From the NCBI GenBank assembly GCA_029261965.1, contig JAJDAH010000398.1, positions 1-35,606 on the forward strand: DNA of 35,606 nt, given 5' to 3'. The notes beneath the pieces were generated by a model. That model searched no databases. It saw only the letters and a list, made by a program, of their open reading frames with translations, and had not been told where the DNA came from. Shown one piece after another: positions 1,352 through 15,939 of this stretch (the first letter of the stretch is position 1; each line of letters opens with the position of its first letter). Both the position numbers and the translations under genes were made by a program. This DNA comes from Polyangiaceae bacterium (lineage in GTDB: Bacteria > Myxococcota_A > Polyangia > Polyangiales > Polyangiaceae).

Positions 1352-2287
1352 ATGGACCAGGGGTTTCCACCGCCGAGCGCACCTCGCCCGCTTCCCGAGG
1401 GCGGGCCATCCCCCGCGTCGGGGCCGTGGACTCATCGCACCTCGGCGGGCGTCCAGTTCGGTGGCGAGCGACCGACCGGGAATCGGGCGGGTCTACTTCA
1501 GAGTTTCCGCGCCGCACTGGGGCTGACTTGGAAGCTCCGCCAAATGCTCTGGCTGCTGAGCGTCAAGGACTTCAAGTCCCGGTATCGGGCGCAGGCCCTC
1601 GGCATGTTTTGGTCGTTTGCCTACCCGCTGGTGATGATGGTCACCGTCACCCTCGCATTCGAGTACATCCTCAAGATCCCCATTCCCCACTTCCCGGTTT
1701 TTTATCTCATTGCCGCGGTCTTTTGGCAGTTCTTCACGAACGCTACCCTGGCGACGACCGGGTCGATGATGGAGAACGCGGCGCTGGTCAAGCGCACGAC
1801 CTTTCCGCGATTCCTCATCCCGATCTCCGCGGTGCTCTCGCACCTCATCAACCTCGCGATGGAGTTCGTGCTGGTGTTCGGGTTCTACCTGGCATTTCCG
1901 GGGGCCTACACATTCAGCGTCAAGTTGATCGCGCTGCCCGCGCTGGTGTTGTTGGTCGTCTTCATCTGCATCGGCGTGGGTCTGATGACATCGTGCCTCA
2001 ACGTCCGGTATCGCGACGTCTTCTACATCGTCACGTCGGTCATCACGATGGGGTTTTGGGTTTCCCCGATCCTCTACTCGACCAGTATGGCGCCGCCCTG
2101 GCTCGCGGCGATCCTGAGGCTGAACCCCCTAGCTGGCGTCATGGAGGGCGCACGGGACGTGATCATGCTCGGACAGTGGCCCAACCCGGCCTATCTGGTG
2201 CCGGGGCTCGTCGCCGCGGTGGTTCTCTTCCTCATGGGTTGCTTCATTTTCAATCGTCAGAACCTCAAACTCGCCGACTACGCATGA
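1352..2287 (+). CDS. wzm: ABC-2 type polysaccharide export permease (Wzm-like)
   Basis: The 311-residue protein has about six membrane segments (roughly residues 83-105, 115-135, 158-182, 190-212, 222-245, 282-300). It carries family landmarks: a cytoplasmic lead-in VKDFKSRYRAQALGMFW, the VKRTTFPRF loop and the LNVRYRDV segment near residue 220. Such permeases pair with an ATPase to carry lipid-linked O-antigen, capsule or teichoic-type glycans across the inner membrane. The ATPase gene overlaps by ATGA (2284-2287), which supports coupled translation. The first 50 or so residues are Pro/Gly-rich and absent from most relatives (usually 255-285 residues), so the true start could lie further in. 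The first ATG lacks a well-placed ribosome site. Family is secure; the start is not. Confidence 0.92.
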   Translation: MDQGFPPPSAPRPLPEGGPSPASGPWTHRTSAGVQFGGERPTGNRAGLLQSFRAALGLTWKLRQMLWLLSVKDFKSRYRAQALGMFWSFAYPLVMMVTVTLAFEYILKIPIPHFPVFYLIAAVFWQFFTNATLATTGSMMENAALVKRTTFPRFLIPISAVLSHLINLAMEFVLVFGFYLAFPGAYTFSVKLIALPALVLLVVFICIGVGLMTSCLNVRYRDVFYIVTSVITMGFWVSPILYSTSMAPPWLAAILRLNPLAGVMEGARDVIMLGQWPNPAYLVPGLVAAVVLFLMGCFIFNRQNLKLADYA

Positions 2288-3033
2288 GCGCCAACAATCT
2301 GAACATCCGAGTCGAAAAGCTCGGCAAGCGCTTCGACCGAGTGCACGAAAAGCCGATGCTGCTTCGCGAGACCGCCGGAATCTTCGCCGGGCGCTCGCAA
2401 AAGAGCGTGGATGATCTGTGGGCGGTGCGAAACGTGTCCTTCGAGCTGGCCAAGGGAGAGACTCTCGGTGTGCTCGGCCGAAACGGCAGTGGCAAAAGCA
2501 CGTTGCTCACGTTGGTCGCCGGAACGAGCTTCCCGAGCGAGGGTTCGGTGTCCACGCGGGGTCGAATCTCGACTCTGCTTCAGCTCGGCGCCGGCTTTCA
2601 CGTCGACATGACCGGCGAAGAAAACATCATGGTCAACGCTGGGCTCCTGGGCCTATCCGCAGACGAGGTCAAGCGAAGGACCCCGCAGATCGTCGAGTTC
2701 GCCGAGCTTCAAGACGCCATCGACACCCAAATCCGCTACTACTCTTCGGGCATGCTCGCCCGCTTGGGCTTCTCGATTGCGATCAACGTCTCGCCGGACA
2801 TCGTCGTCGTGGACGAAGTCCTGGCAGTCGGCGATCTCGGATTTCAGAAAAAGTGCATGGGGGCCGTGAAGGACCTGCAGAAGGGTGGCGCCACCATCGT
2901 GCTCGCCTCCCAGGCTCCCGTACTCGTGGCTTCGCTGAGCACGAAGGCGATTTGGCTGGAAAAAGGCGAGATCAAGATGGCTGGCGACCCCAGCGAGGTT
3001 GCGGCCGAATACAACGCAGAAATGGCAAAATAG
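2284..3033 (+). CDS. wzt: ABC polysaccharide export ATPase (Wzt/KpsT-like)
   Basis: The start is the ATG at 2284, overlapping the permease stop; an open frame extends upstream but is antisense-like noise over the permease. The 249-residue protein has Walker A GRNGSGKST (65-73), signature YSSGM (153-157) and Walker B VVVDE (174-178) followed by the AVGD typical of the polysaccharide subfamily. At the H-loop, where relatives read VSH, this protein reads ASQ: the switch histidine is Gln210. The length fits a bare nucleotide-binding domain of the KpsT/TagH type and leaves no room for the C-terminal carbohydrate-binding domain of Escherichia coli O9a Wzt. It should power export of the glycan made by the neighbouring genes. 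The assignment is firm; the effect of the missing histidine on turnover is unknown. Confidence 0.93.
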   Translation: MSANNLNIRVEKLGKRFDRVHEKPMLLRETAGIFAGRSQKSVDDLWAVRNVSFELAKGETLGVLGRNGSGKSTLLTLVAGTSFPSEGSVSTRGRISTLLQLGAGFHVDMTGEENIMVNAGLLGLSADEVKRRTPQIVEFAELQDAIDTQIRYYSSGMLARLGFSIAINVSPDIVVVDEVLAVGDLGFQKKCMGAVKDLQKGGATIVLASQAPVLVASLSTKAIWLEKGEIKMAGDPSEVAAEYNAEMAK

Positions 3034-3061: not shown

Positions 3062-3979
3062 ATGACCAAGCTGTTTTCGATCATCGGAATGCACCGCAGC
3101 GGCACGTCGCTGGTGGGCCGCTTGACGAACTTGCTCGGCGCGGACCTCGGTCCCGAGGAGGAGCTCATGGCGCCCAAGCCCGACAATCCCGCGGGGTTTT
3201 GGGAGAATCGCAAAGTCTCCGCCTTGCATGACGACTTGCTCGCGCGACTCGGTGGCCGTTGGGACCGACCTCCGTTCCTCGAGGATGGCTGGGAGTCGGC
3301 TGCCGACCTCGAGGAGTTTCGGCTTCGGGCGCGCGCCATCCTCGACTCCAGCTACGGGGGACGAGGCCTCGCGGCGTGGAAGGATCCTCGCGGCTCTTTC
3401 CTCCTGCCTTTCTGGCAGAACTTCTGCACCATCGACGGCACGTTGATGGTCGTTCGCGAGCCCACCGAGGTCGCGGCATCACTCGGATCGCGGTCGGGCA
3501 TGGATTCGGAGACAGCCGCCGAACTCTGGTTGCGATACGTCGTCGCGGGATGGCGCGCCGACCGACGACGGATGGTGCTGTCCTACGGCGACGTGCTCGA
3601 ACGCCCCGACGAGTCGCTCACGCGCCTCGCTCGTTTCTTGGGCGTGCCCATGCCGACCGATGACGTACGCAGCCAAATGGACGCAGTGATCGATCCCAAG
3701 CTCCGGCATCACCAGGCAGACCCGAAACCCGACGGCCAGAAGATTCGACTCGCGCGTGCCATTTTTCGACTCGTGCTAACGCAACCTGCCGAGGTGCTGG
3801 CGCCATTGATGGATTGCCTGCATGACCGAACCCAGGTCGCCGGGCACCTCGAGAAGGGGATGCACGAAACACGGTCGCTCATTTTGCGCAGTGGGCTGAC
3901 GTTCGCGGAGGCGAAGCAATCGACCGAGGGCGAGCACGAACTGTGCGATGATGCCGGAGCGGTGAGAATCGAAGAATAA
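3062..3979 (+). CDS. Sulfotransferase family protein
   Basis: The 305-residue protein opens with FSIIGMHRSGTSLVGRL; GMHRSGTS (residues 9-16) is the 5'-phosphosulfate-binding loop of PAPS-dependent sulfotransferases. A second motif, VVREPTEVAASLGSR (R132 to S140), fits the 3'-phosphate-binding Arg/Ser site. WKDPR near residue 106 is also typical of bacterial members. I chose the ATG at 3062 because an upstream in-frame start at 2999 would overlap the ATPase gene by 35 bases and adds residues without family character. It lies 28 bases after wzt and its stop overlaps the next start (TAATG, 3977-3981), so it is part of the export operon. The likely role is sulfation of the exported glycan or its precursor. 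Some members of this fold have other acceptors, so the substrate is inferred from context. Confidence 0.85.
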   Translation: MTKLFSIIGMHRSGTSLVGRLTNLLGADLGPEEELMAPKPDNPAGFWENRKVSALHDDLLARLGGRWDRPPFLEDGWESAADLEEFRLRARAILDSSYGGRGLAAWKDPRGSFLLPFWQNFCTIDGTLMVVREPTEVAASLGSRSGMDSETAAELWLRYVVAGWRADRRRMVLSYGDVLERPDESLTRLARFLGVPMPTDDVRSQMDAVIDPKLRHHQADPKPDGQKIRLARAIFRLVLTQPAEVLAPLMDCLHDRTQVAGHLEKGMHETRSLILRSGLTFAEAKQSTEGEHELCDDAGAVRIEE

Positions 3980-6900
3980 TGGGCATACGAGCCAGGTTGA
4001 AGTCGCAGCTCACGAACCTCGCTGGATCGGTTTCGAGCGTTTTGGTGACCGAATCGGCGATGGCCTTGCTCAGCAAGGTTGCCGAGCGGCTCCCAACGGA
4101 TACGGAGCCCCATCGTCTCGAGAACGCCCAGGAACAGGACAACACGACCCGAATCGAAGCGAACCTGCAGATCGTCTTCGTTCAGTACGATCGCGAAAAG
4201 TATCGCGGAGCGCTCGAGGGCCTTCTCGCCAGGCTGGAAGCCATCGGCGGCCTCGACTATTCCGTCGTCGTCGTCGACAACAAACGACCGGGTTTTTGGA
4301 CGCACCGCGTTTCCTCGCGAGTCGTGCACATTGGCGGTGACAATGCACACTGGGAGTTCAGCGCGTTCGATCGCGCTCTCGAATACCTAGACGCGCACGG
4401 CAGCGCCAAGGTCTACGCGTTCGTCACAGACGCCTTGGCTGCGTACGGCGCCGAGTTTCTCACGCTGATCGAGGCTGCGACCTTCGAGCGAGCAGAGCAA
4501 CAGCAGGCTTGCGTTGGCTGGGTCGATGCCTGGCCCGCGCCGGTCACCGCACTGGGCGAGACCTATCAAGAGTGGCTGCGCACGAGCTTTCTCGTCGTCC
4601 CTTCGAGCGTGCTCTCGAAGATTCGGCCGCTGACGACGCCGCTCGACCGAACGGGCATCTTCGGCATCGAACCGACGGCGCCGTTCGCCGACGACGCGCC
4701 CGTGGGCGAATCGTTGCAGAAGTATCTCGTCGACTGGCTCGTCGTCGGCCACGAGGATTCCGCTCTGCCAGAGGCATGGCATTCGCGGTTCGTGCTCAGC
4801 AGCGAAACAACCGCTCTTTTTCAAGACAAGGTTTCGGCGATCTTGCGTGAGCAACTGCTTTCGGCGCGCCTCCGGGCGGCGAAAACCCCCTGCTACGACT
4901 TTCGGCTCTCCAACCGCGTCCGCGAGGCGGGCGTGCTTTGGGACGAGATCACTCCGGAGGAGCTCGAAGCATTTCAGTGGGGCGGGTGGCGAACCGCGCT
5001 GGTGGGACGCGAGCAGCCGACCCGACATCACGTCGACGTCTGTGACGTCCCGGACGCCATCGAGCACGGCGCCGATGCGGATTTCGTGATCGAAGGCTGG
5101 GTGCTTGCGCCCACACAGCCTGACCTAATCCGAGTGAGCACCTCGTCGAACGACGTGTACTACTCACCGTGCAACATGATCCGGGAGGACGTCGTGGGCG
5201 CCTACCCGGGCTACGCCGCGGATCCGAACTGCGGCTTTCACATCGAAGGCTCGTTCCGAGGACTGAGGCCAGGCTCTCACGAGATCAAGCTCGACTTCGA
5301 CGACGGGTTGGACGCGACGGTGGTCAAGACGGTGCGCGTCGTTCCGAAAGTCGTGTTCGAGGTCCAGCGCCTTTTTGTGCCGGATTCCTGGCCGGCGGAG
5401 GGTCCCTTGCCCGTCTCGCTCGAGGGCACGCTTCGCGGCACGTTCCTAGCGACCTCGGTCGAGGTCGCGCTCGATGACCACGAGGTGGACATCGCGGTCC
5501 CGCTCGGCCCTAGCACCGTCGACAGCTCCGGCGTGCAGTCCCAACCCGTGCTGCTCAACGGGAGGCTCGCCGGGAAAAAAACCGGGGGGCAGCACTTGTT
5601 GGAGCTGCGATTCGCGCTGTCGAACGGCAAGACATACACGTGGAAGAAACACCTCGCCGTCGGCGCCCACTCCCAGGTCCCCCACACGATGAACGAGCTC
5701 GAGCTCGGCCCGTTCGATCCGGACACGGGGCTTGCCTACGTGCTCATCGGCATCGACCTCTACGGGGTGGCCGCCGGCGACCGATTGCTCCTGTCCCGCA
5801 ACGGGACGGACGTTCTCGATCGTCCGGTGTACTTTTCCCCAGATCTCGGCGGATCCGGGGTGAACCGCGCTCGAGTGGCGATCGAGCAGTCCATCGACGG
5901 GATCGCACCGGGGATCGCCCTGTTCGAGCTCTCAGTCAAGCGGGGGTCCGAACGAATCGTATTGTGGAAAAGCGAGCTCTGCATTGCGTTGCGTAGACCG
6001 GAGCTGACGCTGGACTCGCTCGACGTCGCTTTCACGTCCGTCGCAGGCCGCAGCATTCATCGGATCCACGCCATAGGCTGGGTACGCAACCATTTCTTGG
6101 TCGACTGCTTGGCCATCGAGGTCGACGGTAGCCGGTTGGGAGTCATCGGTTTGTCCGAGCTGCGGCCGGACGTCGCCGAGGCGCTTCAGCAACCCATCGT
6201 AGCCAAACAGGGCTTCAACGCCACGTTCGACGCCGAGGTCGCTCCCGGAGAGCACGTCGTACACGTGATCGCCTACCAAAAGAGTGGAGAGGCGGCGCGC
6301 ATCAGTCGGCGTCTTCGGTTCGAAAAGCCACCAGCGCAACGATTCAGCCTGACTTCCCACGATCTCGAGCAGCTTCGACGTGGAACCACTGCCCGGTACT
6401 ACGGCGCCATCTCCCTGCGCCTCGCGATACGAACCGAAGAGGACGACCTCGCGATATCGCTCCTAGTGGACGACCGTGTCGTCGACGAGCGCATCCTCAC
6501 CGAAGCGGGTAGCCACGAGGTCGAGATGCGATGCGTGCCCGCGTCGCCGGGCGAATATGAAGTTCGCGTGATGGTCTCGTCCCAAGGCAAGCGCATCCTG
6601 ATCACGGATCCGGCCCTGGCCAGGTTCGAACCGACCACCGTGCCCGCCGACACACGTCGAGCACTCGATCTTTTCGTCGACCGATTCGACATCCGACAGA
6701 AAATCAGCGGATACGATGACGGCGACCTCGCCACCAGGCTCATCGAACGACAAGCCGAACGGATTCCCGACTACCTCGCGATGATCGAGACTGTCGGAAG
6801 ACGGCTCTCCGCCGACGAACAACCGTGCGTAGCAGCTCCGGATACCGCCGACGGGAGGGAAACCCGGCCCTTGAAGGTGCTGTTCGTCACCTGGGAGGTT

Positions 6901-8103
6901 CCGAGCCCATACCACGGTGGCGGCGTCTACCTCACGAACATCCTGAAGAGGCTTGGGACGCGGCACGAGATCACGCTGGTCCACACCCAAGGTGTGAACG
7001 AGGTCGGGCACGTAGACGCTGTTCGTCCCTACGTGCGCAAGGTCATCAGCGTGGCACGCACGCATCTACCGGCTCATTTTCGTGCCAACGCTCACCATCC
7101 CCATTTGCTCTACGATCTCTACATCCCGGAGCTGAGACGGCTGATCGAGCTGGAGGTTGCCACCGGCGACTACGATCTCGTCGACTACGAGTATTGGACA
7201 GTGGGACCGTACATCGTGCCGGGGATTCCGAGCGTTCTCGGGGTCATCGAATTGGGCTACACGGCGCTGCTCAATACGAACTTCACTGCGGCTCGATCAC
7301 TCGAATCTGCCGTACCGGAGCTGGATCGGCTACTGCGCTCGTTCCACTACGACACCGTCGAGTTGCCGGCGCTGTGTCGCAACCTCGTCACCCTCACCGA
7401 AGAGGACGCATACGCACTGAAAAAGTATTGCCCCGACGCCAAGGTCTATGTGAACCAATCGGGCGTCGACGTCGAGAGCTTCGCAACGGTTGAAGACGAG
7501 GAGCCGACGGCAGGGCCGCCGACATTCGTGTACGTTGGCAACTTCCAGCACCCACCCAACGTTCGCGCTGTACGCTTCTTCGCCGAGAAAGTCATGCCAC
7601 GACTGCTCCAGCGGCATCCCACTGCGCAGTTCCACGTCGTGGGGTCGCAAGTCCCCGCCGAGCTACGCGAGCTCGAGGCGACGGGCAACGTCACGGTCGA
7701 TGGCTTTGTTCCAGACCTTCGGCCAATCCTCGCGAACGCCACTGCATTCGTCGCACCGATTTTCACGGGCACGGGCATGCGCATCAAGACCCTCGAGGCG
7801 TTCGCATCGGGCACGCTGCTCATTGGTAGCGGGCTCAGTGTCCGCGGCACGGGTGCCATCGACGGGGAACACTTCATCTTGGCGGAGACCGCCGCCGATT
7901 TCGCCGACGCGGCGGCACGGGCAATATCCGACGCGGCAGGCACGAAGGCGATCGCCGACGCCGGCCAACGGCTCGCCGCCGGTTACGACTGGAGCAAAGT
8001 GGCGGATCGTCAGGAGGCGATTTGGCACCAAGTGGTGAAAGATGCGTCCGAGGAGACCGGTTCCCGTGAAGCTCATCCGAGGCTTCATCAACAGCCATCC
8101 TGA
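3979..8103 (+). CDS. Giant two-GT protein: GT-A-like domain, beta modules, GT4 domain
   Basis: The 1374-residue protein has three parts. Residues ~60-300 (VFVQYDREKY, VVVVDNKRPG, IGGDNAHWEFSAFD, FVTDAL) resemble the GT-A-like domain of large rhamnan-type glycosyltransferases. Residues ~360-920 are a string of beta-sandwich modules; two (about 365-455 and 690-780) share a pattern of GWV, then R-x-DV, then GF. Residues ~965-1360 are a GT-B/GT4 enzyme: LKVLFVTWEVPSPYHGGG at the acceptor side, NQSGVD, FVYVGNFQHPPN and GTGMRIKTLEAFASG at the donor side. No signal peptide or membrane segment is visible, so it should be cytoplasmic. Translation probably follows the sulfotransferase (TAATG). The C-terminal GT call is strong, the N-terminal one moderate. 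Donors and linkages cannot be read from sequence. Confidence 0.88.
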   Translation: MGIRARLKSQLTNLAGSVSSVLVTESAMALLSKVAERLPTDTEPHRLENAQEQDNTTRIEANLQIVFVQYDREKYRGALEGLLARLEAIGGLDYSVVVVDNKRPGFWTHRVSSRVVHIGGDNAHWEFSAFDRALEYLDAHGSAKVYAFVTDALAAYGAEFLTLIEAATFERAEQQQACVGWVDAWPAPVTALGETYQEWLRTSFLVVPSSVLSKIRPLTTPLDRTGIFGIEPTAPFADDAPVGESLQKYLVDWLVVGHEDSALPEAWHSRFVLSSETTALFQDKVSAILREQLLSARLRAAKTPCYDFRLSNRVREAGVLWDEITPEELEAFQWGGWRTALVGREQPTRHHVDVCDVPDAIEHGADADFVIEGWVLAPTQPDLIRVSTSSNDVYYSPCNMIREDVVGAYPGYAADPNCGFHIEGSFRGLRPGSHEIKLDFDDGLDATVVKTVRVVPKVVFEVQRLFVPDSWPAEGPLPVSLEGTLRGTFLATSVEVALDDHEVDIAVPLGPSTVDSSGVQSQPVLLNGRLAGKKTGGQHLLELRFALSNGKTYTWKKHLAVGAHSQVPHTMNELELGPFDPDTGLAYVLIGIDLYGVAAGDRLLLSRNGTDVLDRPVYFSPDLGGSGVNRARVAIEQSIDGIAPGIALFELSVKRGSERIVLWKSELCIALRRPELTLDSLDVAFTSVAGRSIHRIHAIGWVRNHFLVDCLAIEVDGSRLGVIGLSELRPDVAEALQQPIVAKQGFNATFDAEVAPGEHVVHVIAYQKSGEAARISRRLRFEKPPAQRFSLTSHDLEQLRRGTTARYYGAISLRLAIRTEEDDLAISLLVDDRVVDERILTEAGSHEVEMRCVPASPGEYEVRVMVSSQGKRILITDPALARFEPTTVPADTRRALDLFVDRFDIRQKISGYDDGDLATRLIERQAERIPDYLAMIETVGRRLSADEQPCVAAPDTADGRETRPLKVLFVTWEVPSPYHGGGVYLTNILKRLGTRHEITLVHTQGVNEVGHVDAVRPYVRKVISVARTHLPAHFRANAHHPHLLYDLYIPELRRLIELEVATGDYDLVDYEYWTVGPYIVPGIPSVLGVIELGYTALLNTNFTAARSLESAVPELDRLLRSFHYDTVELPALCRNLVTLTEEDAYALKKYCPDAKVYVNQSGVDVESFATVEDEEPTAGPPTFVYVGNFQHPPNVRAVRFFAEKVMPRLLQRHPTAQFHVVGSQVPAELRELEATGNVTVDGFVPDLRPILANATAFVAPIFTGTGMRIKTLEAFASGTLLIGSGLSVRGTGAIDGEHFILAETAADFADAAARAISDAAGTKAIADAGQRLAAGYDWSKVADRQEAIWHQVVKDASEETGSREAHPRLHQQPS

Positions 8104-9058
8104 CGCTCGCGACTCGGCAGCGACGATCTTGCGCACGTTCGCAATCCTCACGCTCGCCGCCGGTTGTGTTCCCGAAGGGCCGGCAACCATCGAAGGCGCA
8201 CCACCGGCTCCGCACGAAGTCGCTACGTGGACGTTCGCCGCGCCGTCCGCCGCCGCCACGATCGCTTCGTTGTGGCCTGCCGGCGAGGGCGCGCCCACCC
8301 GAGGGAGGCGCCAGATGTCCACGTCGAGAGCCGGGAGCTCGCTCGTCGCGACGCCGAGCGGGGCCGACCCCTACTTTCTGTGGAAGTTCGAACAGCCCAT
8401 CCAAGCCTCAGCCGTGACGATCATCGTCGATGCAGGCAAGGCCGGCGTTCTTCAACTGTTCTGGTCGTCGGCACATTGTCCGACGTTCCGGGAAACGTGC
8501 AGTCTCACCCGACACCTCCGCTCGGGGGCCAACCGCGTCGACTTTCTCGTCGATTTCAACGTGCCGCTTCGCGAGCTGAGGCTGGATCTCCCGGGCGAGA
8601 AGGGAGAGCGCTTCACCTTCGAAAGCATCCAGCTACTCGGCGTGGCGGAGTTCGGCACGCTGTGGGAGCCGCGTGCGGGCCACACCACGCTCAGAGCGGA
8701 CCCGGCGGGCATGCTTCTGACAGCAATCGAGACGGATCCCTGGGCGACGATTGATACACCGGGGCTCGAAGCACGATGGGTGGACACGGTTGAAGTCGTG
8801 ATGTCCGCGGCGACGGGTACCCGAGCATTCCTGTTCTGGCGGGGCGAGGCGTGCGCGAATTTCAGCGCTGACTGCGCCGTAGCGCTGTCGCCAAGCGACG
8901 GCGGCCGGACCGCGCAAACGGCTCGGCTCGCTGGCCTCGAACGCTGGGAGGGCCGTGTGGATGGCTTACGGCTGGATCCCAGTGAGCAACCGGGCTCCTT
9001 CGTGATCGAGCGACTATCCTTATTGCGGGATCTCACCGCCGGCAGCCCTGCGCCGTGA
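8066..9058 (+). CDS. Lipoprotein with two tandem copies of the beta module of the upstream GT
   Basis: I place the start at GTG 8066, preceded by AGGAG (8051-8055); an in-frame ATG at 8042 is possible, and both overlap the giant GT gene. The N-terminus has a short hydrophobic run ending ILTLAAGC, a lipobox with Cys34 as lipidated residue (330-residue numbering). Two homologous beta modules follow. Each has FW, then Cys at +5, Phe at +8, Cys at +12 from the Trp (W133/C138/F141/C145 and W258/C263/F266/C270) and ends in LRLD...SIQLL or LRLDP...RLSLL. The paired Cys in each module suggest a disulfide, consistent with export. A glycan-binding role is plausible because the same module is fused to a GT at the left edge. 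No enzyme motif is seen. Confidence 0.82.
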   Translation: MKLIRGFINSHPDARDSAATILRTFAILTLAAGCVPEGPATIEGAPPAPHEVATWTFAAPSAAATIASLWPAGEGAPTRGRRQMSTSRAGSSLVATPSGADPYFLWKFEQPIQASAVTIIVDAGKAGVLQLFWSSAHCPTFRETCSLTRHLRSGANRVDFLVDFNVPLRELRLDLPGEKGERFTFESIQLLGVAEFGTLWEPRAGHTTLRADPAGMLLTAIETDPWATIDTPGLEARWVDTVEVVMSAATGTRAFLFWRGEACANFSADCAVALSPSDGGRTAQTARLAGLERWEGRVDGLRLDPSEQPGSFVIERLSLLRDLTAGSPAP

Positions 9059-9137
9059 GACAAAACAGCACCGGCCCGCTCGGTGAGCAGGCCTGATTGC
9101 TGTCTGGAAGCCTTGGTTTGGAGTGTCCCGAGACGGC

Positions 9138-9563
9138 TCAGGTGCCGCCGGCGCCAGCGTTGCCAGCCATGCCAGCCGCTCCGCCCATGGCATCGACCAT
9201 GACGTCGTTGGCGGCATCGCCGTTCGACATCACGTCGTCGCTGGCATCGGACCCGCCCATGCCTGCCACGCCGCCAGCGCCACCGCCGGTACCGCCGGTA
9301 CCGCCGCCGGTACCGCCCGTGCCGCCGCCAGTACCACCGGTACCGACGCCGCCAGTACCGCCGCTGCCGCCCGTGCCGCCGGTACCACCGGTGCCACCGC
9401 CGCCAGAGCCGCTGACTCCGCCCTCGGCACCAGCGGACCCGCCGCTGCCGAAAGCGCCATCGCCACCGCTACCACCGCAAGCAACGAACACGCTGCTCGA
9501 GACAACAACCGTTGCGACCAAGACCAAGCCTTTGTGACTTCGCACTATCCCCGGAATTTTCAC
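9138..9563 (-). CDS. Gly/Thr-rich lipoprotein
   Basis: The 141-residue product has a signal peptide (LVLVATVVVSSSVFVAC, Cys of the lipobox followed by GGSGG), then about 75 residues dominated by GGT, GGS and GGTGGG units, then a short tail (DASDDVMSNGDAANDVMVDAMGG). Start is GTG at 9563; a GTG at 9545 would give a more usual signal peptide length, and neither has a clear ribosome site. There is no folded domain of recognisable family. In Polyangia such Gly-rich stretches normally link a lipidated N-terminus to a domain; here the protein ends soon after, so it may be a spacer, a substrate for glycosylation, or a truncated relic. It lies 82 bases downstream of the TMTC-like gene on the same strand. 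Confidence 0.75.
   Translation of the reverse strand: MKIPGIVRSHKGLVLVATVVVSSSVFVACGGSGGDGAFGSGGSAGAEGGVSGSGGGGTGGTGGTGGSGGTGGVGTGGTGGGTGGTGGGTGGTGGGAGGVAGMGGSDASDDVMSNGDAANDVMVDAMGGAAGMAGNAGAGGT
9262..9480 (-). repeat. Gly-rich low-complexity repeat with recurring GGTACC
   Basis: Within the Gly/Thr-rich lipoprotein gene, units such as GGTACCGGCGGT recur with imperfect spacing, and the hexamer GGTACC occurs five times between about 9288 and 9400. The repeat keeps the reading frame (multiples of three) and codes for GGT/GGS triplets. It is a coding repeat likely to vary in length between strains, not a non-coding array. Confidence 0.7.
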
Positions 9564-9645
9564 GGGTTGAATTTGGTCCAGCCCCGTCGTGAAGTCAACT
9601 CTTCGGCGCCTGTGGATAAGATCTGGTTCAGTTTTGGCGCTTTCT

Positions 9646-11190
9646 CTACGGATCTGGTCGGCCGGCGACGCAGGCGGGGGCTTGGGCGGGCTCGAGTGCC
9701 GCGCATCGCCGCGCGCGGTTCATACCCCTCCGGTGTCTTCCGCCGAGGCGCTCTATCTCTAGGATCCCCACGCGCGCCCCACGGACGTCGCCACGGGTAA
9801 GCTGGTTGTGCACGCGCGTCACTCGGGCCGACAAGTAATTGGGGTCGAGGGCGATTGCCCGCTCGATACTCGCGTCGGCACCGTCGAGGTCGCCAGCCAG
9901 TCGGCGAACTCGGGACAGTCCGGTCCAGGCTCGTGGAGAAGTCGGTGCGCGCTCCGTGGCGGCCAACCACAAGGTGGCATCGCTGGCCCATGCGGCCGCG
10001 GCCAGCTGGGCGTACACGAGCGGCGGCAAGAGTGCGGCCGCCAAAGCCGGCGTCCGCCAAGTCGGCGCAAGGCGAGCCGCGACGCGGTCCGCGATCCATC
10101 CCCAAACCAGTCCCCCTCCAAGAGCCGCGAGAAAAAGATACCTGTCCGCGTAGGCGTTGATGGGGCCCACGAGAGGCGAAGTCGGGAGCGGCGCGAGCAT
10201 TGCGATGGCGATCCCGGCCGAAGGTATGCGAGTGGACCGATGCCGCGCCGTCCACACCACCGCGACGAGAATCAGCATGAAACCGACGAGCCACCAGGGC
10301 GACGCCGTCGGAGCGGGCGCATATTCTGGAGACCAGTCGATGGGCACCAGGGCGTCGACCACGGAGTGAACCTCATACCGGGCCGTGTCGAGCACTTTCT
10401 CGAACGCCGTACGGTCCACGAGCGCCAGTGGCACGTCGTCGCGGCCGCTCGTGCGAAGCCATGTCCGCCAGGTTCCCCAGCCTCCCAGAACGACCCCAAA
10501 AGCAGCAAGAGTCACCATCCGTGCTCGAACCCAGTGCCAGCTTCTACGCTGGACGACGATGATGCCGATCGCGAGGGGCACGAGAGCGACTGCGCTCTCC
10601 TTGCCGAACAACCCCACGAGCCACGCCAGCGCGGCGACAGCTGCTCTGTCCACCGGCTTGCGCGATGGATGAGGCGTAAAAAGGAGCGCGAGCGCGATCA
10701 ACACACCGATACCAGCGATCAAATCCTCGCGATAGTTGACCGCTGCAACCACTTCGGCATGCGCTGGATGCATGGCGAAGAGCAAGCCAGCGACCAGCGC
10801 AACCCGTCGGCGACGTGTGATGTAGAACGCCGCGAACCCGGCGGCTACGCAGGCCGCACCGTACAAGAGCAGCGAGTGCACGTGATAGCCGAACGGACGC
10901 AACGAAAAGAGCTGTCGGTCGAGCCACATCGACGCGATCATCGCCGGGCGAGTCGCATCGACCACTGCGTGCTCGGTGCCTTCCCCGGTGACCGACACCC
11001 TGAGCAGCCACGACAACGGTTGAAGCAAGGACCGGTTTTGAACGATGGTCCAGTGGTCGTCGTAGACGAAACCGTGGGTGAGCGTCGGCGCGAACGTGAT
11101 GCCGGCCACCAGCGCGATCAGGACGATGCCGATCTTCAGCCGACGCGAGGCCTTCGCGCGGGGCGCCGGTCCTTCGACTTGTCCCGCCAC
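9646..11190 (-). CDS. TMTC-like GT-C membrane protein with C-terminal TPRs
   Basis: The 514-residue protein starts with a basic N-terminus and a first membrane segment (residues 19-37), then GFVYDDHWTIVQN, where Asp44-Asp45 sit in the first periplasmic loop as in GT-C glycosyltransferases of the TMTC/PMT type. Further family-like features are the AMHPAHAEVVAAVNYREDLIAG segment near residue 150 and about ten hydrophobic helices to residue ~400. The tail (about 412-480) has two TPR-like units (LAGDLDGADASIERAIALDPNY). Eukaryotic TMTC proteins are O-mannosyltransferases using polyprenyl-linked mannose; bacterial relatives are mostly uncharacterised. It starts only 26 bases from rmlD on the opposite strand and is followed by the Gly/Thr-rich lipoprotein. 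Family resemblance is good; activity is inferred. Confidence 0.8.
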   Translation of the reverse strand: MAGQVEGPAPRAKASRRLKIGIVLIALVAGITFAPTLTHGFVYDDHWTIVQNRSLLQPLSWLLRVSVTGEGTEHAVVDATRPAMIASMWLDRQLFSLRPFGYHVHSLLLYGAACVAAGFAAFYITRRRRVALVAGLLFAMHPAHAEVVAAVNYREDLIAGIGVLIALALLFTPHPSRKPVDRAAVAALAWLVGLFGKESAVALVPLAIGIIVVQRRSWHWVRARMVTLAAFGVVLGGWGTWRTWLRTSGRDDVPLALVDRTAFEKVLDTARYEVHSVVDALVPIDWSPEYAPAPTASPWWLVGFMLILVAVVWTARHRSTRIPSAGIAIAMLAPLPTSPLVGPINAYADRYLFLAALGGGLVWGWIADRVAARLAPTWRTPALAAALLPPLVYAQLAAAAWASDATLWLAATERAPTSPRAWTGLSRVRRLAGDLDGADASIERAIALDPNYLSARVTRVHNQLTRGDVRGARVGILEIERLGGRHRRGMNRARRCAALEPAQAPACVAGRPDP

Positions 11191-11216
11191 GAGAGCGTTC
11201 TATCATCCAGGCCCCC

Positions 11217-12113
11217 GTGAAGGTTCTTCTCTTCGGTGCGAACGGCCAGCTCGGCTACGAGCTACGGCATCTGCTCGCCTCGCGTGTCGAGCTGAGCGCC
11301 CCCGCGCGCGAAGACTCCGACTTTCGGCGGATCGACGAACTCGGCGACTTGGTACGGTCCGTCCGACCGAGCGTCATCGTGAACGCGGTCGCCTACAACG
11401 AGGTAGATGGGGCGGAGTCGGACCCGGCGGGAGCCATGCAAGTCAACGCCAACGCCGTCCGCGCCCTCGGAGCGGAGGCCAAGCGGACCGGGGCCGCGCT
11501 GATTCACTACTCCACGGACTTCGTATTCGATGGAGAAAAGACGACGCCGTACACCGAAGACGACGAAACCAATCCTCTCGGCGCCTACGGGGCGTCGAAA
11601 CGAGCGGGCGAACTCGCCCTGGAGGAAATCGAAGCACCGGCGATCATCCTGAGGACCGCGTGGGTCTACAGCCTCCGCCGAAAGAGCTTCGTGTCAGCGA
11701 TGTTGAAATGGGCCCGGCAGCGCCCCGAACTCAGGGTGGTCAGCGATCAGGTCGGTAGCCCGACGTGGTGTCGGGACCTGGCGGAAGCCTCTGTCGAGCT
11801 GATCGGCCGCCTCGGCGACGAACCCGGGGTGAGCGCGCGGGAACATCGGGGCATCTACCACCTCGCGGGAAGCGGCCAGTGCAGCCGGCATCAGCTGGTC
11901 GAAGCGATGCTGAAATCGCACCCCGCCGACGGGAGCCTGGTCTGCAAGGACGTCATCCCGACGACGAGCGACGAATTTCCGGCGCCGGCAAAGCGGCCGA
12001 AGTTCGCGCCGCTCGACTGCAGTCGAATCGACGAACGGCTTGGGATCCGCCTGCGTCCGTGGCAAGAGGGCCTGTCGGACGCGTTGAACTCACCGCCAGC
12101 CCCAAGCGAATGA
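11217..12113 (+). CDS. rmlD: dTDP-4-dehydrorhamnose reductase
   Basis: The 298-residue protein catalyses the NAD(P)H-dependent last step of dTDP-L-rhamnose synthesis. It begins (GTG 11217) with KVLLFGANGQLGYELRHL, the GxxGxxG Rossmann motif of RmlD. It has NAVAYNEVDGAE, YSTDFVFDG and the catalytic YGASK (Tyr124, Lys128), followed by LRTAWVYS and the substrate-side VSDQVGSPT. Its length is normal. The stop overlaps the rmlB start (ATGA, 12110-12113), so D-B-A form one operon. No Shine-Dalgarno is evident before the GTG, and only 26 bases separate it from the divergent TMTC-like gene, so the promoter must lie within that gene's 5' coding sequence. Assignment is firm. Confidence 0.95.
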   Translation: MKVLLFGANGQLGYELRHLLASRVELSAPAREDSDFRRIDELGDLVRSVRPSVIVNAVAYNEVDGAESDPAGAMQVNANAVRALGAEAKRTGAALIHYSTDFVFDGEKTTPYTEDDETNPLGAYGASKRAGELALEEIEAPAIILRTAWVYSLRRKSFVSAMLKWARQRPELRVVSDQVGSPTWCRDLAEASVELIGRLGDEPGVSAREHRGIYHLAGSGQCSRHQLVEAMLKSHPADGSLVCKDVIPTTSDEFPAPAKRPKFAPLDCSRIDERLGIRLRPWQEGLSDALNSPPAPSE

Positions 12114-13168
12114 AGAAGACCTATCTCGTCACCGGCGGAGCAGGATTCATCGGTTCGAACCTCGTTCATTGGCTGCTCGACTCGTCGCCAGACGCGCAGG
12201 TGATCGTGCTCGACAAGCTCACCTACGCCGGGCATCTCGAGAGCCTCGAGCCCGCCAGCCGCAATCCGCGATACGAGTTCGTGCGCGGCGACATCGGCGA
12301 CCGGACAGAGGTCGAGAGCCTATTTCGACGGATCGAACCCGACGTGGTCTTCAATCTCGCGGCCGAGTCTCACGTCGACCGTTCGATCGAGGGTCCCGCC
12401 GCTTTCGTTCAAACCAACATCGTCGGTACGTTCGTGATGCTCGACGTGGCGCTCCACTGGTCCCGCGGTCGCGAGAAACCCCCGACGTTCGTTCACGTGT
12501 CGACGGACGAGGTCTACGGGTCCCTCGGAGCCGAAGGTCGCTTCACCGAAGAGTCTCAATATCAGCCGAACTCGCCATACGCGGCGTCGAAAGCTGGCGC
12601 TGACCACCTCGCACGTGCGTACTTCCACACCTACGGGCTGCCAGTGGTGACGACGAACTGCTCGAACAACTACGGGCCGTATCAATTCCCAGAGAAGCTG
12701 ATCCCTTTGGTCACGCTGAATGCCATCGAGAGCAAGCCCCTCCCGGTCTACGGCGACGGGCTCAACGTCCGCGATTGGCTGTTCGTGCGCGACCATTGCG
12801 AAGCGCTGCATCTGGTCGCCGAGCGCGGCGAACCCGGCGAGACGTACAACATCGGCGGCAACGAAGAGCGCACGACTCTCGACATGGTTCGGGGGATCTG
12901 CCGCGTGCTCGACGAGAGCGGTCCCAAGAGAACGACTCCACACCACGAGCTGATCCGACACGTCGATGATCGCCCGGGCCACGATCGCAGATACGCAATC
13001 GACGCGTCGAAGATCACCGAGACCCTCGGCTGGCGGCCAAAAACGAGCTTCGACGACGGTTTGGAGCAAACAGTCCGTTGGTACGTGGAAAACCGCGAAT
13101 GGTGCGAGCGAGTTGCCAAAGGCGTCTACGAACGCGAGCGTTTGGGGCTCGCTCGGGGAGAAAAATGA
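12110..13168 (+). CDS. rmlB: dTDP-glucose 4,6-dehydratase
   Basis: The ATG at 12110 overlaps the rmlD stop and gives 352 residues, the family norm; the open frame continues upstream only as a shadow of rmlD. The enzyme converts dTDP-glucose to dTDP-4-keto-6-deoxyglucose with bound NAD. TGGAGFIGSNLVH (8-20) is the dinucleotide motif, ESHVDRSI is a family signature, STDEVYG lies near residue 131 and the catalytic YAASK at about 157-161. NNYGPYQFPEKLIPL and DGLNVRDWLFVRDH are diagnostic of RmlB among extended SDRs. The gene is translationally coupled on both sides by ATGA. Certain assignment. Confidence 0.97.
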   Translation: MKKTYLVTGGAGFIGSNLVHWLLDSSPDAQVIVLDKLTYAGHLESLEPASRNPRYEFVRGDIGDRTEVESLFRRIEPDVVFNLAAESHVDRSIEGPAAFVQTNIVGTFVMLDVALHWSRGREKPPTFVHVSTDEVYGSLGAEGRFTEESQYQPNSPYAASKAGADHLARAYFHTYGLPVVTTNCSNNYGPYQFPEKLIPLVTLNAIESKPLPVYGDGLNVRDWLFVRDHCEALHLVAERGEPGETYNIGGNEERTTLDMVRGICRVLDESGPKRTTPHHELIRHVDDRPGHDRRYAIDASKITETLGWRPKTSFDDGLEQTVRWYVENREWCERVAKGVYERERLGLARGEK

Positions 13169-14244
13169 AGGGACTGGTACTCGCGGGGGGGTCGGGCAAA
13201 CGACTGCGGCCAATGACCCACACCGGCGCGAAGCAGCTCGTACCAGTCGCCAACCGCCCTGTGCTGTTCTACGTGATCGACAACCTCACCGACGCCGGCG
13301 TCACCGACATCGGTGTCATCATTTCGCCGGAGACCGGAGAGGAAATTCGCTCGGTCCTCGGGGATGGCTCTCGTTGGAACGCGAAGCTGACGTTCATCCA
13401 ACAGGAACGCGCCAGTGGCCTGGCTCACGCCGTAGCGACCGCCAAGGACTTCCTCGGAGCTTCGGACTTCGTCATGTTTTTGGGCGACAATCTCATCGGT
13501 ACGAAGATCAGAGAAAGCGTGGCTCGATTTCGGGCGCACCCCGAGCTCGCCGCATCGCTGATGCTCAAGGAGGTAGATAATCCGTCCGCGTTCGGCGTGG
13601 CGGAGGTCGACGCCAGCGGAAAGGTCATCAGCCTCGTCGAAAAACCCAAGGAGCCGAAGAGCAACTTGGCGCTCGTCGGGATCTATATGTTTCGCTCGAG
13701 TGTGTTCGAAGCGATCGCCGAGATCCAGCCGTCGGCTCGCGGCGAGCTCGAGATAACCGACGCCATTGCACGGCTCATCGAAAAGGGTGGCACCGTCGAT
13801 TTCAGTCGAGTCGATTCGTGGTGGCTCGACACGGGAAAAAAGGACGATGTGCTCCGGGCGAACGATACGGTGCTCGACGATTGGCTGACCGCTGAGACGA
13901 ACGGCGATGTCGACGCCGAGAGCAGCGTCACCGGGCGCGTTCGGATCGGCAAGGGCGCCAAGATCGTCCGATCCACCGTCCGAGGCCCAGTGGTGATCGG
14001 TGAGAACGCGCGGATCAGCGATTCGTTCATCGGACCTTTCACCTCGATCGGAGACGGTGTCCGCGTCGATCAATCGAGGGTCGAGCATTCGGTGATTCTG
14101 CGAGACGCCACCATCGAAAAGGTGCCGTCGCTCGAGGATTCACTGGTCGGCAAGCGCGTCGTCGTTGCGCCTGGACGCGCACACGGCGGTGCCCTTTCGC
14201 TCATGGTTGGCGACGACAGCGTCGTTCACCTGTCGAAGACTTGA
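13165..14244 (+). CDS. rmlA: Glucose-1-phosphate thymidylyltransferase, long form
   Basis: The ATG at 13165 overlaps the rmlB stop and yields 359 residues. The enzyme makes dTDP-glucose from dTTP and glucose-1-phosphate, the entry step to dTDP-rhamnose. The N-terminus, KGLVLAGGSGKRLRPMTH then KQLVPVANRPVLFYV, is the nucleotidyltransferase signature; FLGDNL contains the metal-binding Asp, and LVEKPKEP and SWWLDTGKKDD follow in order. Unlike the 290-residue RmlA of enterobacteria, it has a C-terminal left-handed beta-helix tail (residues ~245-345; VRIGKGAKIVRSTV, GPVVIGENARI, GPFTSIGDGV), as in the long-form subfamily common in actinobacteria and archaea. The gene ends three bases from the converging rmlC. 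Confidence 0.95.
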   Translation: MKGLVLAGGSGKRLRPMTHTGAKQLVPVANRPVLFYVIDNLTDAGVTDIGVIISPETGEEIRSVLGDGSRWNAKLTFIQQERASGLAHAVATAKDFLGASDFVMFLGDNLIGTKIRESVARFRAHPELAASLMLKEVDNPSAFGVAEVDASGKVISLVEKPKEPKSNLALVGIYMFRSSVFEAIAEIQPSARGELEITDAIARLIEKGGTVDFSRVDSWWLDTGKKDDVLRANDTVLDDWLTAETNGDVDAESSVTGRVRIGKGAKIVRSTVRGPVVIGENARISDSFIGPFTSIGDGVRVDQSRVEHSVILRDATIEKVPSLEDSLVGKRVVVAPGRAHGGALSLMVGDDSVVHLSKT

Positions 14245-14247
14245 GCT

Positions 14248-14817
14248 TCAGCCCTTCTGAAACTCGAAATTGTGCTCGGCATCGGCGAGGGTCGGGGCAG
14301 CGAGATCTTTGTCGGAAACGAAGGTCGGCGGAATCGGCCACTCGATGCCGATGGCGGGATCCGAAAACACTATCGCTCTCTCAGCCGCCGGCGTGTGCAC
14401 CTCCGTGCACTTGTAGAGGACCAAGGTCTCGTCGCTGAGCGCGAGAAACGCGTGCGCAAACCCCGGCGGAACCCAAAGGGCGAGTCGGTTGTCCTCGGTG
14501 AGCTCGCGGCCCACCCATTTTCCGAAGCTCGGCGAACCTCGGCGAATGTCGACGGCGACGTCGAAAATCGCGCCGGTCAGCGCGCGGACGAGCTTGCCCA
14601 TGGGGTGCGGTTCCAGCTGGTAGTGAAGGCCCCGAAGCGTTCCGCGCTTCGAGGAGCTGAGGTTGTCTTGCACGAACGTCTCAGCGAAACCCGCCGCCTC
14701 GTAGGTGAGCTTCGAGTAGAGCTCCGAGAAGAACCCGCGGCCGTCCTTGGCGCAGCCAGCCTCGACGACGAGGACCCCGTCGAGCTCGGTGCTCGATATC
14801 TTGACCGGCATTGGCAT
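14248..14817 (-). CDS. rmlC: dTDP-4-dehydrorhamnose 3,5-epimerase
   Basis: The 189-residue cupin catalyses the double epimerisation between RmlB and RmlD. RGLHYQ supplies the catalytic base His65; WVPPGFAHAFLALSD, LYKCTEVHTP (Tyr135, the proposed acid) and FVSDKD (Asp171, partner of the His) complete the site. The start is either Met1 or Met3 (MPMPVKISS); both lack a strong ribosome site. It completes the pathway with rmlD-B-A but is on the opposite strand, tail to tail, so it needs its own promoter, presumably in 14818-14937. Firm assignment. Confidence 0.95.
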   Translation of the reverse strand: MPMPVKISSTELDGVLVVEAGCAKDGRGFFSELYSKLTYEAAGFAETFVQDNLSSSKRGTLRGLHYQLEPHPMGKLVRALTGAIFDVAVDIRRGSPSFGKWVGRELTEDNRLALWVPPGFAHAFLALSDETLVLYKCTEVHTPAAERAIVFSDPAIGIEWPIPPTFVSDKDLAAPTLADAEHNFEFQKG

Positions 14818-14937
14818 CAGACATTCACCTCGAAAGCGCTTGCGACTTGCCTCCGGATGATGCCGTAAATCGGGTTCCTGGGTCCAGACCGCGTTCGCTT
14901 GCGACTCGCGTGACGCCCTATTAGGTTCTGGTTCCTC

Positions 14938-15939
14938 ATGGCCGGTCTGTCACCCGCCAACGCGTGTGGGTTCATCGAGCTCATGGCGCCCGTAGGGGCG
15001 GACCTGCTCATCAGCGGTTGGCTCTTGCACGAGTCCGGACCGTTCGACGAGATCGAAGTCGAGGTCGATGGGAAGACGGTGGCCAGAGCCGCGCCGACTC
15101 GACGCCCCGACGTCGGCAACGTGTTGAAGAAGATGCCAGGGAGCGAGGCATGCGGATTTCGGTTTCAATTGGCGGCCCCGCCTCCCCGGGGGCGGTTGAC
15201 TCTGCGCGGCATTCGAGGGGCGACGCGCGACAGCGTCTACGAGAGCTTGTATCGCCTCGACCTCGACGAGGTGGTCACTGCGCCCCCCGACCACCTCATC
15301 AAGCGCGTCACTGGCTCGACCGAAGTCAGCTTCTTCCGGTCAGCCGGCCTGCGCACGTATACCGAATTCCGTGATGCGCTCGAGCGCTACCACCCGGAAC
15401 GCATCGGGCACTTGCTCGACTGGGGGTGCGGTTGTGGCCGGATGGCAGTGCATCTCGCGGCGGACCAAGTCGCCGACGAAATCCACGCCTGCGACATCGA
15501 TCGGGAGGCGGTCGAGTGGTGCGCGAACAACGTGCCGGGGGCGGAGTTTCGCCCCATCGATCTCTATCCGCCGACCTCATACGCGGACGACTACTTCGAT
15601 GTAGTCATCAGCTATTCCGTGTTCACGCATCTGACGGAAGAAGCTCAGCACCAGTGGCTGCGCGAACTCAAGCGCATCGTCGCTCCTGGCGGGCTCGTGC
15701 TGACTACGCTGAACGCCGACTATCACGCGCGCGTATGGTTCGGCGAGGAGATGAGCGCCCGACTTTGTCGAGAGGGCTTCGTGGACGTGGGCCAAGACTG
15801 CAACCTCGACGACGTCGCCCCGGACGACTACTACCGCGGCGTGCTGCAGTCGCATTGGTACACGGAGAAGTGGGCCGACCACTTCGAGATCGTCGACTAC
15901 GTCGACGGCACGCAAGCTTTGGTCGTGCTGCGACGCTGA
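14938..15939 (+). CDS. SAM-dependent methyltransferase with N-terminal GW/DV/GF beta module
   Basis: Residues ~130-333 are a class I methyltransferase: LLDWGCGCGRMAVHLA (motif I, about 159-174), ACDIDREAV with the acidic residue binding the ribose, FDVVISYSVFTHL (motif IV region) and LKRIVAPGGLVLTT. Residues ~10-100 are a separate beta module with SGWLL, EVEVDG, RRPDV and CGF, matching two modules inside the giant GT at 3979-8103. The pairing of one module with a methyltransferase and with a GT suggests it binds the common glycan or scaffolds the enzymes. The C-terminal WYTEKWADHF is frequent in sugar or lipid methyltransferases of surface-glycan clusters. The acceptor is unknown; O-methylation of the polysaccharide is a reasonable guess. 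Confidence 0.87.
   Translation: MAGLSPANACGFIELMAPVGADLLISGWLLHESGPFDEIEVEVDGKTVARAAPTRRPDVGNVLKKMPGSEACGFRFQLAAPPPRGRLTLRGIRGATRDSVYESLYRLDLDEVVTAPPDHLIKRVTGSTEVSFFRSAGLRTYTEFRDALERYHPERIGHLLDWGCGCGRMAVHLAADQVADEIHACDIDREAVEWCANNVPGAEFRPIDLYPPTSYADDYFDVVISYSVFTHLTEEAQHQWLRELKRIVAPGGLVLTTLNADYHARVWFGEEMSARLCREGFVDVGQDCNLDDVAPDDYYRGVLQSHWYTEKWADHFEIVDYVDGTQALVVLRR

Follow-up and report, generated by a model that had tools for sequence, protein, structure and literature searches.

The 35,606 nucleotide contig JAJDAH010000398.1 of a Polyangiaceae bacterium (GenBank assembly GCA_029261965.1), here called the window and meaning the whole stretch of DNA that was analysed, encodes two enzymes which share a domain of about 90 to 105 residues. 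The giant glycosyltransferase (GT; 3979-8103, + strand, 1374 amino acids (aa)) carries this module twice, and the class I S-adenosylmethionine (SAM)-dependent methyltransferase (MT; 14938-15939, + strand, 333 aa) carries it once, at its N-terminus. The three stretches are one homologous domain: copy 1 of the GT (aa 353-455; 5035-5343, +) with the motifs EGWVLAP, IREDV and NCGF, copy 2 of the GT (aa 677-782; 6007-6324, +) with IGWVRN, LRPDV and KQGF, and the module of the MT (aa ~11-109; 14968-15264, +) with SGWLLHE, RRPDV and ACGF. Related modules are found on other enzymes, and the module is very probably a recurrent accessory domain of glycan-assembly enzymes.

A sequence-only reading of this DNA had aligned the three stretches by eye, and they lie where it placed them, in the two open frames of the giant GT and the MT. 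BLASTP between the two proteins finds next to no similarity (best E 0.94 across 30 aa, not significant), so that the alignment by eye reaches further than pairwise tools. A pattern of the GW/RxDV/GF type, picked after the fact, occurs only at these three places in 497 open reading frames, with 0.35 occurrences expected from shuffles. For a leave-one-out comparison, a profile of two copies was used to recruit outside sequences, a second profile was built from the outside sequences alone, and the left-out copy was then scored. With window sequence thus excluded from the scoring profile, all three copies were recovered, copy 1 of the GT with E 6e-12, copy 2 with E 2e-4 and the MT module with E 7e-10, and the profile check which the sequence-only reading had proposed links the three copies above background. 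The profile of the three stretches has matches in 22 of 183 genomes in the order (the genome of the window is one of the 22), the best one outside the window having an E of 2e-11. Within the window a profile search finds no fourth copy, and profile comparison detects no kinship to the module in aa 456-676 and 783-890 of the giant GT.

That short beta-strand motifs (GW, RxDV, GF) resemble each other by chance would be compatible with the non-significant BLASTP and with a motif chosen in hindsight. Against it stand the leave-one-out scores of all three copies, the common predicted fold of copy 2 and the MT module, the profile-profile match to a secreted family and the retention of the module in orthologues, the last three described below. 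Sequence profiles already refute chance, which is hardly credible as an explanation, while homology and fold of the module are as good as certain.

The AlphaFold model of copy 2 has a pLDDT of 91.8 and that of the MT module a pLDDT of 80.3, the latter being weak at both ends. Compared by element order, the two models are identical (E-E-E-E-H-E-E-E, i.e. seven strands and one short helix); in both, the helix starts with R-x-DV, and the following strand has G-F at or adjoining its start. The module is, according to these models, an immunoglobulin (Ig)-like beta-sandwich, a two-sheet fold of about seven strands. The nearest PDB structures of copy 2 are Ig- or fibronectin type III (FnIII)-type accessory domains of carbohydrate-active enzymes, with Z scores of about 9 to 10 (up to 9.7) over 84-100 residues and identities of 5-17%, found in GH2 beta-galactosidases and beta-glucuronidases, chitinase A, Endo-D and the linker of an M60 glycopeptidase. 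The Ig-like domain 2 of GH2 enzymes, the FnIII domain of chitinase A and the M60 linker share with the module the general fold and a similar placement beside catalytic domains; at such identities no family link to them is shown, and their hosts degrade glycans whereas the hosts of the module build or decorate them.

The genomes searched for further modules are mostly metagenome assemblies of a single phylum, with plasmid records covering what lies outside it. Host functions were assigned by Pfam matches; one sulfotransferase and the N-terminal, GT-A-like part of the giant GT were assigned by eye. Most enzyme-borne hosts contain GT, MT or sulfotransferase domains, among them three MT lineages and two sulfotransferase types. 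Glycosyltransferases with the module include an orthologue of the window's giant GT in genome G479, a protein of the order DUF4214-module-GT2 that may have a second GT domain (G106), a protein with GT2 plus GT1 domains (G058), four further GTs (two in G555 and one each in G586 and G183), and a fusion in G364 with the order ABC_tran-Wzt_C-module-GT4, close to which lies a class I MT with the module. TylF-type MTs with the module are present next to the GT orthologue in G479, in G552 and in G350, the last assigned by its 59% identity to the TylF-type MT of G479. The sulfotransferases comprise two Sulfotransfer_2 proteins with an N-terminal module (L196 of G553 and L198 of G555) and one sulfotransferase-like protein (L120 of G132), which has a P-loop motif and no Pfam match and carries the module at its C-terminus. 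Despite a C-terminal position in L120 and an N-terminal one in L196 and L198, the modules of these three proteins are 36-38% identical, which suggests domain shuffling behind their placement in the two sulfotransferase types. A radical SAM protein of G132 (contig C310, L190:784-2160, +) also has a C-terminal module.

Outside the phylum, the module is found on Azospirillum brasilense plasmids on GTs near GDP-sugar and ABC-transporter genes, and on plasmid p5 (L219:8932-9792, +) at the N-terminus of a GNAT acetyltransferase whose gene immediately follows rfbCBDA and which may O- or N-acetylate the same polysaccharide. In Sinorhizobium meliloti it is part of a 234-aa 'hypothetical protein' within a GT/MT cluster. 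No function could be assigned to four hosts (L121, L122, L191 and L197); of these L197 (1386-3071, -; G553:C188) is a 562-aa protein with the module near its N-terminus, without Pfam match and with a stretch that by eye is SGNH-hydrolase-like. This host tally, taken together with the homology, bears out the view of the sequence-only reading that one beta module is attached to enzymes of different chemistry, and the profile search it had suggested does return GT, MT and sulfotransferase proteins near wzm/wzt. Other searches gave little: BLAST with the whole giant GT matched only its GT4 domain in relatives, a scan of genome contigs with the MT and one of viral contigs with the three-copy profile found no relative, and among plasmids the TylF-MT module matched nothing and the sulfotransferase module gave a single weak match. 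A MoaA-like protein (L192) and the loci L055, L057 and L118 were set aside as false or doubtful profile matches.

The giant GT is composed of a GT-A-like N-terminal region (aa 63-345; 4165-5013, +), assigned by eye and without a match in Pfam or PDB, module copy 1, an unassigned stretch, module copy 2, a second unassigned stretch and a GT4 domain (PF13692, E 7e-23; aa 1181-1318; 7519-7932, +). In the MT the module precedes the methyltransferase domain (PF08241, E 6.5e-15; aa 160-255; 15415-15702, +). These architectures persist in the orthologues of both window enzymes: aa 63-506 of the giant GT are 37% identical over 455 aa, module included, to the orthologue of G479 (L165:1-1455, -), and the MT is 31% identical over its full length, again including the module, to a homologue of G364 (L164:13324-14553, +; E 3e-41 in a single comparison).

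The cluster of the GT orthologue (G479:C6) contains an ABC-2 permease, a Wzt with a Wzt_C domain, RmlC and an exosortase (PF09721, E 2e-30; L165:16142-17797, -), the exosortase gene lying beside rmlC in the same cluster as the module-bearing GT and TylF MT. On contig C22 of G364 an ABC-2 permease gene directly adjoins the Wzt-module-GT4 fusion. Overall, an enzyme-borne module lies at most 13 kb from an ABC-2 permease gene in five of twelve genomes (G000, G479, G364, G183 and G106), where the number of genes and the size of the genomes predict 0.31 (P 5e-6); the 13 kb limit was chosen after seeing the places. Without the window's own genome the linkage is found in four of eleven (P 1e-4). For the secreted form of the module, described next, it is found in one of fourteen genomes, and there to a weak permease match; the difference between the two forms is a modest one (one-sided Fisher test by hand, ~0.05).

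Within the phylum, the module's most frequent relatives form the C-terminal domain of proteins that appear to be secreted, and have two conserved cysteines (RPDVC ... GCPNVGF). These proteins form a widespread family of about 500-600 aa (L037-L049 and many more loci), with the Cys-bearing form of the module at the end, after a conserved YLxLGSF...PPFGxLDxP stretch; the remainder of the scanned members has no Pfam match. The enzyme-borne form differs in having no Cys pair and in sitting on enzymes which, from their families, are expected to be cytoplasmic. Profile-profile comparison by hhalign relates the enzyme-borne to the secreted form (prob 98, E 2e-13) and the secreted form to the Ig-like family Big_7 (PF17957; prob 96, E 3e-9). 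Big_7 has a similar strand pattern (V-x-VDG ... G-x-H-x-L/V-x-V-x-A-x-D-x-x-G-N), and 8 out of 15 members of a mixed alignment of secreted and enzyme-borne sequences match it at E<=1; it does not have the R-x-DV-helix-GF segment, which is an insertion relative to Big_7 and in which R-x-D(V/L) caps the short helix. At the Pfam gathering cut-off of 24.1 bits, Big_7 matches none of 11 enzyme-borne modules and neither window protein. The best secreted relatives, scanned whole, reach 19.6 and 23.5 bits and thus fall below the cut-off, and the enzyme-borne profile compared with Big_7 directly gives a prob of 7, so that the two are linked solely via the secreted form.

Pfam and NCBIfam scans of the window assign the GT4 and methyltransferase domains and leave the three module stretches without any family; indeed no model of either collection covers the enzyme-borne form. 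Because the enzyme-borne form is kin to the secreted form and yet has no direct match to Big_7, we regard the module, from its profile relationships, as an unnamed relative of Big_7 which by Pfam's cut-off is not a member. The remark of the sequence-only reading that it knew of no described role for the module fits with this, and with a search of the open-access literature (most subscription journals lie outside it), in which no paper on it was found. A weak profile match (E 0.0025), including an ARPDV ... GF stretch, is to the C-terminal domain of the Enterococcus faecium prophage amidase EfAmi1 (8C4D). In this protein the amidase domain is the solved part, and the C-terminal domain, known from AlphaFold only, is described as an eight-stranded barrel with three helices (PMC10167349). 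Given that barrel, the kinship is doubtful and EfAmi1 was set aside.

The sequence-only reading had further taken the shared motif as a sign that all copies bind one glycan or lipid carrier or dock to one scaffold, and this part of it finds no support. The invariant residues of the enzyme-borne form (G-W, R-x-D, G-F) are equally invariant in the secreted relatives, and no column is conserved solely in the enzyme-borne form, in a comparison where each enzyme family is represented by one to three sequences. Since every column conserved in enzyme-borne modules is also conserved in secreted ones, the motif reads as a signature of the fold. The mean identity of modules is 16% within one cluster and 18% between unrelated pairs, compared to 32% within the same enzyme family in different genomes. 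In a module tree that is weak overall, copy 1 of the giant GT pairs with the GT module of G479 (support 96/86) and the sulfotransferase modules group together. Each module thus appears to be adapted to its own enzyme, and the shared motif probably does not stand for a shared ligand or scaffold.

What the module does may be explained in several ways. It is a mobile accessory domain that recurs at the N-terminus, at the C-terminus or between the catalytic domains of polysaccharide-assembly enzymes, often next to ABC-transporter genes of the wzm/wzt type. In the explanation we favour, it would be non-catalytic and would contact the polymeric, lipid-linked glycan close to the active site, where it would hold or orient the acceptor of its own enzyme. 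It would act as a carbohydrate-binding or substrate-guiding Ig domain does, with no single ligand common to all modules. The glycan contact is the working step of this explanation; we propose it tentatively, at rather less than an even chance, because polymeric glycan is what nearly all hosts handle and because domains of a comparable kind adjoin the catalytic domains of enzymes that degrade glycans. The statement as a whole, i.e. a Big_7-related, Ig-like and non-catalytic accessory domain that would hold or orient each enzyme's own acceptor glycan, is likewise given rather less than an even chance. Several observations weigh against it. The PDB matches of the MT module are weaker than those of copy 2 (best Z 8.8) and are mixed with animal Ig receptors. 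Among the best PDB neighbours, linker or structural Ig domains are as frequent as domains with sugar contacts, and no close solved relative is sugar-bound. The absence of enzyme-only columns leaves no conserved candidate binding surface, one of the hosts is a radical SAM protein, and in seven of the twelve genomes there is no linkage to an ABC-2 permease, several of these modules being on short contigs.

A structural spacer, i.e. a rigid Ig-like linker that packs on the catalytic domain or keeps two catalytic domains at a set distance, without a ligand of its own, fits nearly as well as glycan contact with a conservation that is confined to structural-looking residues common to the secreted relatives. 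The Ig-like domain 2 of GH2 enzymes and the FnIII domain of chitinase A may be analogues, and such domains are the top PDB neighbours of copy 2. Both copies of the giant GT lie between its N-terminal region and its GT4 domain, and modules follow the enzyme family, as would be expected if each packs on its own catalytic partner. A spacer leaves unexplained, however, the N-terminal modules on single-domain MTs and sulfotransferases, the C-terminal one on another sulfotransferase and the concentration on glycan-assembly enzymes, and we judge it unlikely. Still less likely is docking, in which all copies would bind the same partner (Wzm/Wzt, a coiled-coil scaffold or one another), bringing GT, MT and sulfotransferase together at the site of export. 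The clustering with ABC-2 permease genes and the presence of the module inside the ABC_tran-Wzt_C-module-GT4 fusion would agree with it, and for ABC-transporter-dependent O-antigens it is established that enzymes form scaffolded complexes (PMC11231755). A common partner is at odds with modules of one cluster being no more alike than unrelated pairs and with the lack of residues conserved in the enzyme-borne form only, and no module is present on the sulfotransferase of the window itself.

In ABC-transporter-dependent O-antigen assembly the carbohydrate-binding domain of Wzt recognises the chain end, and a coiled-coil protein can scaffold enzyme complexes (PMC11231755). Like the module, Wzt_C (PF14524) is a non-catalytic beta domain carried by a component of such an assembly system. 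Wzt_C matches neither the window proteins nor the modules, and it is a distinct family, because one protein of G364 holds both, Wzt_C at aa 602-728 and the module at aa ~791-894; the Wzt of the window has neither.

Accessory carbohydrate-binding domains are well studied on polysaccharide-degrading enzymes and on the Wzt exporter. To our knowledge, few are described on the cytoplasmic enzymes that build or decorate polysaccharides. A wider generalisation, which we consider doubtful, would have the module handle glycans generally in cytoplasmic polysaccharide synthesis. It would be an unnamed Ig-like family repeatedly acquired by glycosyl-, methyl-, sulfo- and acetyltransferases and by exporter ATPases, in this phylum and in Alphaproteobacteria, and would do for biosynthetic enzymes what carbohydrate-binding modules do for degradative ones. 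Recognisable by profile on four or more enzyme chemistries, the domain offers a way to find polysaccharide enzymes not yet described, many of which are now annotated as 'hypothetical protein', as is the 234-aa gene product of S. meliloti. The way in which decorating enzymes find their place on the growing chain becomes a question that can be put by domain deletion.

Upstream of the giant GT the window encodes, all on the + strand, a Wzm-like ABC-2 permease (1352-2287; PF01061, E 1.4e-14), a Wzt-like ABC ATPase of 248 aa (2287-3033; PF00005, E 4e-18) and a sulfotransferase (3068-3979; PF00685, E 1e-5) which the module profile does not match. The Wzt-like ATPase has no Wzt_C domain, whereas its counterparts in G479 and G364 have one. 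Directly 3' of the giant GT in the cluster lies the gene of a 338-aa protein (8042-9058) with a lipoprotein-like start, for which Pfam and NCBIfam scans give no match. On the opposite strand, a hydrophobic frame of 514 aa (9646-11190, -) has an apparent tetratricopeptide repeat (TPR)-like C-terminus and by eye resembles the glycosyltransferases of the TMTC type.

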